Assembly (NCBI GenBank): GCA_021324815.1
Contig: JAJPIJ010000053.1
Location: 1-46,707 of the forward strand
DNA length: 46,707 nt
Source: Gammaproteobacteria bacterium
GTDB taxonomy: Bacteria; Pseudomonadota; Gammaproteobacteria; JAJPIJ01
Reading direction: 5' to 3'
Part shown: piece by piece, positions 15,657-17,541 of the stretch
Numbering within the stretch: position 1 is the first letter of the stretch
Layout: each line of letters begins with the position of its first letter
The notes under the pieces: model-generated
Database searches by the model: none
What the model saw: the letters and a program-made list of their open reading frames with translations, nothing else
What the model was told of the DNA's origin: nothing
Translations under genes and position numbers: made by a program

Positions 15657-16157
15657 TCAGGAACCCAGCCAGGCCCGCACCTGCCGCCGCACGCTGTCGA
15701 TGTCGAGTTCGCCCACCACGTGCTGCACCACGTGGCCGTCGGGCGCGATGAGAAAACTCGTGGGCGTCAGCATCACGTCGCCGAAGCCACGCGCGATCTC
15801 GCCGGAGGTGTCGAGCGCAATGGTGTAGGGAATCGATCTTTCCTTCACCATGCGCAGCACCTGATCGGGCGGGTCGTAGGCCATCGCCACGCCGATGATG
15901 GTGAATCCCTTGGAGCCCAGTTCCTGGTACAAGGCGGCCAGCGCCGGCATTTCCTTGACGCAGCCCGGGCAGCTCGTGGCCCAGAAATTGACCAAGACGG
16001 GCCTGCCTTTGAGCTGCTGGAGGCTGATTTGGCGGCCGTCAATGGCGGGGAAGGTGAGGGTCGGCGCCGCGTCCCATCCCGGCTTGCTGAACCACAGCCA
16101 GCCCACCGCGGCCGCCGCCGTGATGAAGAAGGATATCAGTAGGAAAACGCGTTTCAT
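15657..16157 (-). CDS. TlpA/ResA-like membrane-anchored thioredoxin
   Basis: The 166-residue product has an uncleaved N-terminal anchor (VFLLISFFITAAAAVGWLWF), then a thioredoxin fold with the redox motif CPGC in NFWATSCPGCVKEMPAL and the cis-proline in LTPTSFLIAPDGHVV. Such proteins reduce periplasmic disulfides, typically in cytochrome c maturation. I take the ATG at 16157; the frame extends to 16229 without a plausible signal. It shares a transcript with hemJ, which hints at heme or cytochrome metabolism. Confidence 0.86.
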   Translation of the reverse strand: MKRVFLLISFFITAAAAVGWLWFSKPGWDAAPTLTFPAIDGRQISLQQLKGRPVLVNFWATSCPGCVKEMPALAALYQELGSKGFTIIGVAMAYDPPDQVLRMVKERSIPYTIALDTSGEIARGFGDVMLTPTSFLIAPDGHVVQHVVGELDIDSVRRQVRAWLGS

Positions 16158-16320
16158 GTGAGGGTTAGAGGGTTCCGGCGCCCGGATGCATGATTGGATA
16201 CGGATTGAGTCCTGTGAATTCCAGTCCACCCATTAGTTGTATGAATTGAAGTTACGCGAATTAATTAATATATGAATTTAAGTATAGTTCTTAACTAATT
16301 GCTTTTTAAGATAATTATTG
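16158..16320. other. AT-rich intergenic island
   Basis: The 352-nt gap between the thioredoxin gene and argC is the longest gene-free stretch here. About 16230-16320 is strikingly AT-rich compared with everything around it, with runs such as TTAATTAATATATGAATT. It ends at the -35 of a predicted promoter and may act as an UP element or a site for a nucleoid protein. No ORF with coding character was found. The rest of the gap holds a small-RNA unit and an argC promoter, listed separately. Confidence 0.6.
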
Positions 16321-16349
16321 TTGACATATTCCGCCGCAATTATTAAGCT
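16321..16349 (+). promoter_or_regulatory. Strong predicted sigma-70 promoter for a small RNA
   Basis: A perfect TTGACA (16321-16326) is followed after 17 bp by TAAGCT (16344-16349). The AT-rich tract immediately upstream fits an UP element. The predicted start is near 16356. Confidence 0.6.
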
Positions 16350-16355
16350 AGTCTG

Positions 16356-16429
16356 GTCGTGCCGCAAGACACGACGCCTAATAATAACGATTATTCACAC
16401 CTTGAAAGCGGCTGCGGCCGCTTTTTTTT
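16356..16429 (+). ncRNA. Candidate small RNA, about 75 nt
   Basis: Between a predicted promoter and a strong terminator lies a short non-coding unit. Its 5' end folds as GTCGTG (16356-16361) with CACGAC (16370-16375), loop CCGCAAGA. A small A/U hairpin (AATAA CGA TTATT) follows near 16383-16395, then a single-stranded CACACCTTG, then the terminator stem. No ORF or tRNA-like fold is present. I do not recognise it as a known RNA family. argC has its own promoter after the terminator, so this is not simply the argC leader. Confidence 0.5.
16405..16429 (+). terminator. Intrinsic terminator
   Basis: AAAGCGGC (16405-16412) pairs perfectly with GCCGCTTT (16417-16424) around loop TGCG, followed by a run of eight T (16422-16429). 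This is the clearest intrinsic terminator in the window. Confidence 0.85.
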
Positions 16430-16431
16430 GC

Positions 16432-16459
16432 TTGAGCGAAGAGCAGACGAGGGTATAGT
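16432..16459 (+). promoter_or_regulatory. Predicted promoter for argC
   Basis: TTGAGC (16432-16437) and TATAGT (16454-16459) are spaced by 16 bp, immediately after the terminator. The start would be near 16466, leaving a leader of about 44 nt before the argC ATG. No ARG-box-like palindrome was identified with confidence. Confidence 0.45.
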
Positions 16460-16509
16460 ACGCCACTTTCCATCATTATCGCGCAAGGCGGTCAATTTCA
16501 AAGGTGGCC

Positions 16510-17541
16510 ATGATAAGGGTTGGCATCGTTGGCGGCACGGGCTATACGGGCCTGGAATTGCTGCGCCTTCTGTGCGGCCATCCGGACGTACAATTGCAGG
16601 TGGTGACCTCGCGGCAGGAGGCGGGTGCGGCCGTGGCCGATCTGTTTCCGAGCCTGCGCGGCTGCACCGATCTTCGCTACCTGCCGCCGCAGCGCGCGGA
16701 TTTGAAGGGCTGCGACCTGGTATTTTTCGCCACGCCCAACGGCACGGCCATGACCCAGGTCCCGGACCTGTTGACGGCCGGCGTGCGGGTGATCGACCTG
16801 GCGGCCGATTTCCGGCTGCAGGACAAAAAAGTCTGGGAGCAATGGTATGGCCAGCCGCACGCCTGCCCTGAGCTGCTGGCGGAGGCCGTGTATGGCCTCC
16901 CGGAGGTGAACCGCGAGCGGATCTGCAAAGCGCAACTGGTGGCGAATCCAGGTTGTTACGTCACGGCGGTGACGCTGGGTTTCCTGCCGCTCATCGAAAC
17001 CGGTCTTGTGGATTTGAAGCGCTTGATTGCCGACGCCAAGTCCGGTGTCAGCGGGGCCGGGCGCGGCGTCGCCAGTCACACTCTTTTCTGCGAGGCCGGG
17101 GATAACTTTCATGCCTACGGCGTGCCCGGCCACCGGCACGGGCCGGAAATCAGCCAGAACCTGGCGAGGCTTGCAGGCCAGGCGGTGGAACTGACCTTTG
17201 TCCCGCACCTGGTGCCGATGCTGCGCGGCATCCATGCCACGCTGTACGCCGAACTCAAGAGGAAGGACGCGGACCTGCAGGCCCTGTACCTCCGCCGCTA
17301 CGCCGATGAGCCATTCGTCGACGTCATGCCGCCCGGCTCGCATCCGGAAACCCGCTCGGTGCGTGGCGCCAACGTGTGCCGGATCGCGGTTCACCAGCCG
17401 CAGGGGGGGCGGCGGATCGTGGTGCTGGCGGTCATCGACAATCTGGTCAAGGGCGCGGCGGGGCAGGCCGTGCAGAACATGAACCTGATGTTCGGTCTGC
17501 CGGAAACGCGCGGGCTGGCGGCGCCCGCGCTGGTGCCCTGA
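16510..17541 (+). CDS. argC: N-acetyl-gamma-glutamyl-phosphate reductase
   Basis: ArgC reduces N-acetylglutamyl phosphate with NADPH in arginine synthesis. The Rossmann motif [18 protein letters not shown] opens the protein and the catalytic Cys149 is in [34 protein letters not shown] and [20 protein letters not shown] also match. I choose ATG 16510 (343 residues), with AAAGG 6-10 nt upstream, over the GTG at 16504. It heads a same-strand run through erpA. Confidence 0.96.

Follow-up and report, generated by a model that had tools for sequence, protein, structure and literature searches.

A predicted small RNA gene lies upstream of argC

The window, that is, the whole 46.7-kb stretch of gammaproteobacterial DNA analyzed here, contains an intergenic region with a TlpA/Redoxin-like gene on one side and argC on the other. 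The features in and around this region are given below, where G000 is the genome of the window and G001 another genome of the same genus.

15657–16157, minus strand: divergent TlpA/Redoxin-like thiol-disulfide protein (Pfam PF08534); same neighbour in G001
16230–16320, plus strand: AT-rich upstream regulatory tract, approximately 80% AT over its last 80 bp
16240–16252 and 16271–16283, plus strand: direct repeat TATGAATTGAAGT / TATGAATTTAAGT within the AT-rich tract, 31 bp apart
16321–16326, plus strand: −35 hexamer TTGACA of the small RNA promoter; TTGAC at the same place in relatives
16344–16349, plus strand: −10 hexamer TAAGCT of the small RNA promoter, after a 17-bp spacer; identical in G000, G001, G014, G166 and G031
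16356–16429, plus strand: predicted small RNA of about 74–75 nt, its start placed from the −10 hexamer and its end at the T-run
16356–16375, plus strand: predicted 5′ hairpin, GTCGTG (16356–16361) / CACGAC (16370–16375), with pair-preserving changes among members
16376–16403, plus strand: A-rich, mostly unpaired linker with AAU AAU AAC at 16380–16388 and CACACCUU
16404–16429, plus strand: intrinsic terminator GAAAGCGGC-UGCG-GCCGCUUUUUUUU, stem-loop at 16404–16425 followed by T8 ending at 16429
16432–16459, plus strand: TTGAGC-16-TATAGT, a separate promoter for argC located past the terminator; ACGAGGGTATAGTACGCCACTTTCCA identical in G001
16510–17541, plus strand: argC, N-acetyl-gamma-glutamyl-phosphate reductase (Pfam PF01118/PF22698)

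The argC gene begins with ATG at 16510, preceded by AAAGGTGG. The elements that an initial annotation had read here, namely TTGACA-17-TAAGCT, the GTCGTG/CACGAC hairpin, the GC-rich terminator with T8, and TTGAGC-16-TATAGT, were all found in place. It had also described the AT content as unlike that of the rest of the window, and among 200-bp bins that of 16201–16400 indeed had the minimum GC of 0.35, the next lowest being 0.46. When both strands of the window were scanned for a TTGAN-type −35, a 16- to 18-bp spacer, TANNNT, and an intrinsic terminator 35–130 nt further on, exactly one unit was obtained, at 16321–16429 on the plus strand. The RNA from 16353 folded at −24.2 kcal/mol (z = −3.3), and none of 200 shuffles was as stable. 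The unit sequence occurs as a single copy in its own assembly (2.37 Mb), and searching a plasmid collection with it gave no match. A consensus promoter scan omitted TTGACA-17-TAAGCT because TAAGCT, which matches TATAAT at 3 of 6 bases, is a weak −10 by consensus. TAAGCT is nevertheless credible as a −10, given that five genomes representing three families (G000, G001, G014, G166 and G031) retain the whole promoter.

The RNA had been said to belong to no recognizable family, and this was borne out by Rfam 15, in which neither the window nor six related loci had a match at the gathering threshold. Permissive Rfam searches of the window and its relatives returned weak sub-threshold matches only. 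One member, L054, weakly resembled PhrS of Pseudomonas (RF01673; 23.3 bits versus a cut-off of 37), whereas the window RNA did not match this model, which at 212 positions is also much longer. PhrS is an Hfq-type small RNA that is under an FNR-type regulator and includes a small ORF. Locus L125 weakly matched CrcZ (RF01675; 17 bits versus a cut-off of 95). CrcZ is an RpoN-dependent Hfq/Crc decoy of about 400 nt with several AAN repeats, and AAYAAY-type repeats bind the distal face of Hfq; the window RNA, in contrast, carries a single short repeat behind a sigma-70 type promoter. No small RNA at argC was found among open-access papers, which cover the literature in part. The best reading is an unrecorded, fast-diverging small RNA family, representing a well-known type of regulator and not a new type of system.

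Similar units precede argC in other families

In G001, whose ArgC is 82% identical to that of the window (many other orthologues are 60–72% identical), the unit likewise stands between the TlpA gene and argC. Between the two genomes, the −35, hairpin, terminator, and argC −10 region show few or no differences and the linker sequence CTAATAATAACGATT shows none; a large part of the AT-rich tract and the argC promoter is kept as well, whereas the outer flanks differ. The unit was absent at argC in the other genus of the same family (G002 and G003).

A covariance model (R1) was trained on three members (G000, G001 and G031), with position and the −35 hexamer outside the model. It recovered the untrained G014 and G166 upstream of argC at E values of about 3e-5. 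Over 369 genomes of the class, R1 gave further matches, among them G122, G237, G303, G069, G200 and G142. These six directly precede argC, and on their far side there is in most cases a divergent gene, DUF4126 or TlpA; untrained matches upstream of argC thus totalled eight. TTGAC occurred at the right distance in most of the better matches. In a phylum-wide sample of 299 genomes, R1 reached E ≤ 0.001 only for the genome of the window. A pattern match in G004 (L045) lay inside a coding gene and was set aside as chance.

Up to 500 bp upstream of 161 argC copies (gammaproteobacterial orthologues) was then scanned for the promoter and terminator unit. It occurred on the argC strand in 23 of the 161 regions, in 12 families, whereas the reverse strand and 20 rounds of shuffles gave no unit. 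The promoter spacer was 17 bp in 22 of these 23 members, the −35 lay about 140–290 bp upstream of argC in 22 of 23, and AAGCGGC/GCCGCTT of the terminator was retained in most. A scan of 424 kb of strand at the argC loci in 54 genomes detected six units, every one upstream of argC. The term orphan, used in the initial annotation, therefore did not hold, as similar units precede argC in about 12 families and the G001 copy is near base-for-base; the conservation in relatives that was to be checked is seen in G001, in the R1 matches and in the argC-upstream scan. Some of the 23 may be unrelated RNAs at the same spot, so that not all need be orthologous, because the hairpin is weak or absent in some and AAYAAY is missing in six; G123, G248 and G336 have position and architecture in common with the others but not the A-rich repeat.

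Pairing of the 5′ hairpin and the AAY run of the linker recur among members

The 5′ domain was more stable than its dinucleotide shuffles, with a mean z of −1.36 over the 23 members and a combined value of −6.5. The gain in stability was strong in G014, G031, G122 and G303 and missing in G343, G136 and G127; the hairpin was weak or absent in these last three and in G186. Hairpin pairing was counted by script because MAFFT misaligned the diverged hairpins. Covariation, named beforehand as a check on the first hairpin, was found as pair-preserving changes: in eight genomes whose hairpin is clear, standard pairs filled 62 of 64 pair cells and as many as five pair types occurred at a single position, although the arms had been picked for complementarity and the permutation contrast is inflated accordingly. 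Within family f67, the second hairpin pair is A-U, G-U or G-C.

The AAY run of the linker averaged 2.5 versus 1.2 in shuffles. At least two consecutive AAY were present in 17 of 23 members, and the AAYAAY repeat was missing in G031, G048, G123, G188, G248 and G336. No seed conserved across families was found. In L008, L017, L103, L133, L146 and L201, CACCACC stands in the linker directly before the terminator and could pair with GGUGGUG-type ribosome-binding sites.

These data also bear on whether the unit is chance or decaying sequence, promoter-like and terminator-like but giving no functional RNA, for example an insulator between the TlpA gene and argC. Such an origin would fit the divergence outside the terminator and the recurrence of GCGGC-type terminators elsewhere in these genomes. 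However, the hairpin and linker are conserved between species, the hairpin covaries, the units were as frequent as 23 in 161 when the controls had none, and a position-blind model returned repeatedly to one locus. We regard this explanation as highly improbable.

The unit is unlikely to be an argC attenuator

Amino-acid biosynthesis attenuators and ArgR-controlled argC leaders would likewise have a promoter and a terminator ahead of argC on its strand. In that case transcription from TTGACA would run toward argC, with the hairpin and terminator adjusting read-through to arginine or to some other signal; the strand of the unit, the distance of its −35 from argC in 22 of 23 members and the terminator between promoter and gene all agree with this. 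The window RNA departs from such leaders, however, in several respects. The separate promoter before argC that had been claimed at first is present in the sequence: the promoter-like TTGAGC-16-TATAGT lies past the terminator, with 26 bp unchanged in G001. Neither a leader peptide nor any other ORF conserved among the members was found in the RNA unit. A small ORF from the GTG at 16359 (VPQDTTPNNN..., also open in G001) was rejected as coding, since it has no Shine-Dalgarno sequence and continues across the terminator, and since the frame is closed in most of the other members. The predicted folds offered no anti-terminator pairing, and the RNAs showed no better pairing with their own argC leaders than with those from other genomes (mean rank 11.3 of 23). 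Furthermore, ArgR (PF01316) had no match in the window genome (98% complete), although argC is present.

The unit also persists at loci where argC is missing from the place that it has in the window. The G333 unit (L062) has hemL on one side and DUF6776 on the other, and the G008 unit (L064) precedes DUF6776-bactofilin and an erpA-like gene, so the constant linkage to argC that an attenuator would show is broken at both. Searches for argC found none in G333 (98% complete; at the strict cut-off used, a diverged argC elsewhere is possible) or in G008 (62% complete). The RNA thus appears to outlive its neighbour argC. Taken together, the gene's own promoter, the lack of a leader ORF and of cognate pairing, persistence without argC and the lack of ArgR make a leader or attenuator a rather unlikely explanation.

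The RNA resembles class II Hfq-dependent small RNAs

We consider a stand-alone small regulatory RNA gene, probably trans-acting and resembling Hfq class II RNAs, the best explanation for the unit. That it could form a self-contained small RNA gene, as first proposed, is supported by its absence from Rfam, its conservation and the pair-preserving changes of its hairpin. A sigma-70 promoter, helped by an activating AT-rich region, would give a 74- to 75-nt transcript consisting of the 5′ hairpin, the A-rich linker with AAY repeats and the intrinsic terminator, and this RNA would work in trans via Hfq in the manner of ChiX or MgrR. In this scheme we infer transcription and where it starts, binding to Hfq, pairing and which targets are involved.

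ChiX is laid out as a 5′ hairpin, AUAAUAAUAA, and a terminator. Like the window RNA, ChiX (sroB; Escherichia/Salmonella) and MgrR are short, stand-alone RNAs with A-rich AAN/ARN sequence before a U-tailed terminator (PMC7987339); the window RNA differs in its argC locus, in having no Rfam match at threshold, and in that no target-pairing sequence in common with them was recognized. Class II small RNAs use both the distal and the proximal face of Hfq, with an AAN repeat and a U tail as their signature (PMC7987339). In the window RNA, AAU AAU AAC is an AAY/ARN repeat in the RNA body and a candidate distal-face site, and the T8 of the terminator is a candidate proximal-face U tail. At the sequence level, the unit also has its own promoter and an intrinsic terminator that delimit a short RNA, and the genome encodes Hfq (PF17209 match, E value 1.1e-28). 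Action in trans like that of ChiX or MgrR is proposed because the hairpin, A-rich repeat and U-tailed terminator form a class II layout and Hfq is encoded; by this layout the RNA is a candidate class II member.

A stand-alone RNA with no need for Hfq, which would bind another protein such as ProQ or CsrA or serve as a sponge, is less probable, though the likeliest of the alternatives. A hairpin beside a strong terminator would be a fitting target for ProQ as well, some members lack the AAY repeat, and a similar RNA at another locus (L057) carries a GGGAGGA loop. The window RNA, however, is without a GGA-loop motif, and its AAN repeat and U tail are the class II Hfq signature (PMC7987339), with AAY enriched over shuffles.

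The AT-rich tract probably contributes to promoter control

The AT-rich island proved to be common to the same genus and not general to the RNA family; the initial picture thus stood for the window, of which the island is the most AT-rich bin, and not for the RNAs at large. Some other members have an AT-rich upstream region of different sequence. The 31-bp AAGT spacing of the direct repeat and conserved blocks are kept in G001, and the tract with its repeat is probably an UP element and/or a set of tandem activator sites. An ArgR operator in the tract was considered and rejected: the only site has three mismatches, its TGAAT half-site is not kept in G001, and the genome has no ArgR.

Other families have their own upstream elements. 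In f44 and f46 (L008, L017, L103, L133, L146 and L201), a conserved AT-rich element around TAATACTCTAATATNNTGAAAT stands just upstream of TTGAC, and f56 (G058) has a looser version; each of the four f44 genomes searched had exactly one copy of this f44/f46/f56 upstream sequence. In f67 (L054, L056 and L058), the −35/−10 spacer contains a CRP/FNR-type palindrome, TGTGA-N6-TCACA or a variant differing by one base, which suggests that the promoter of the f67 RNA may be under a CRP/FNR-type regulator.

Wider occurrence and second loci

The catalogue of broadly conserved small RNAs is poor beyond the enterobacteria and Pseudomonas, owing to the rapid sequence divergence of these RNAs. Here, fixed gene order combined with a promoter-terminator scan revealed a candidate in about 12 families, with a host range that includes the methanotroph-lineage genome USCg_Taylor (L076, the same as G031); synteny plus a unit scan with a reverse-strand control is a simple recipe for finding further small RNAs. 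The candidate regulator lies beside arginine and iron-sulfur (erpA-like) genes. Tentatively, and with somewhat less confidence than in a stand-alone RNA at this locus, the members might descend from an ancient, hitherto unrecorded gammaproteobacterial small RNA held in a fixed position at argC-DUF6776-bactofilin-erpA, one that is an Hfq-dependent regulator in wide use, diverges too fast to be visible to homology search, outlasts argC and has its pairing region rewired in each lineage.

Promoter-terminator patterns were also observed at other loci. Directly upstream of rho in an acidobacterial MAG (L077:1356–1469, minus strand), such a pattern is probably an unrelated rho leader. In f65 (L051, L055 and L057, at about 1501–1604), a similar RNA unit with promoter, hairpin, A-rich stretch and terminator occupies a second locus, where each copy adjoins a gene for a ClC chloride channel and those of L051 and L057 have argA on the far side. 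The hairpin loop of this second-locus RNA in L055 and L057 is GGGAGGA, a possible CsrA/RsmA site.
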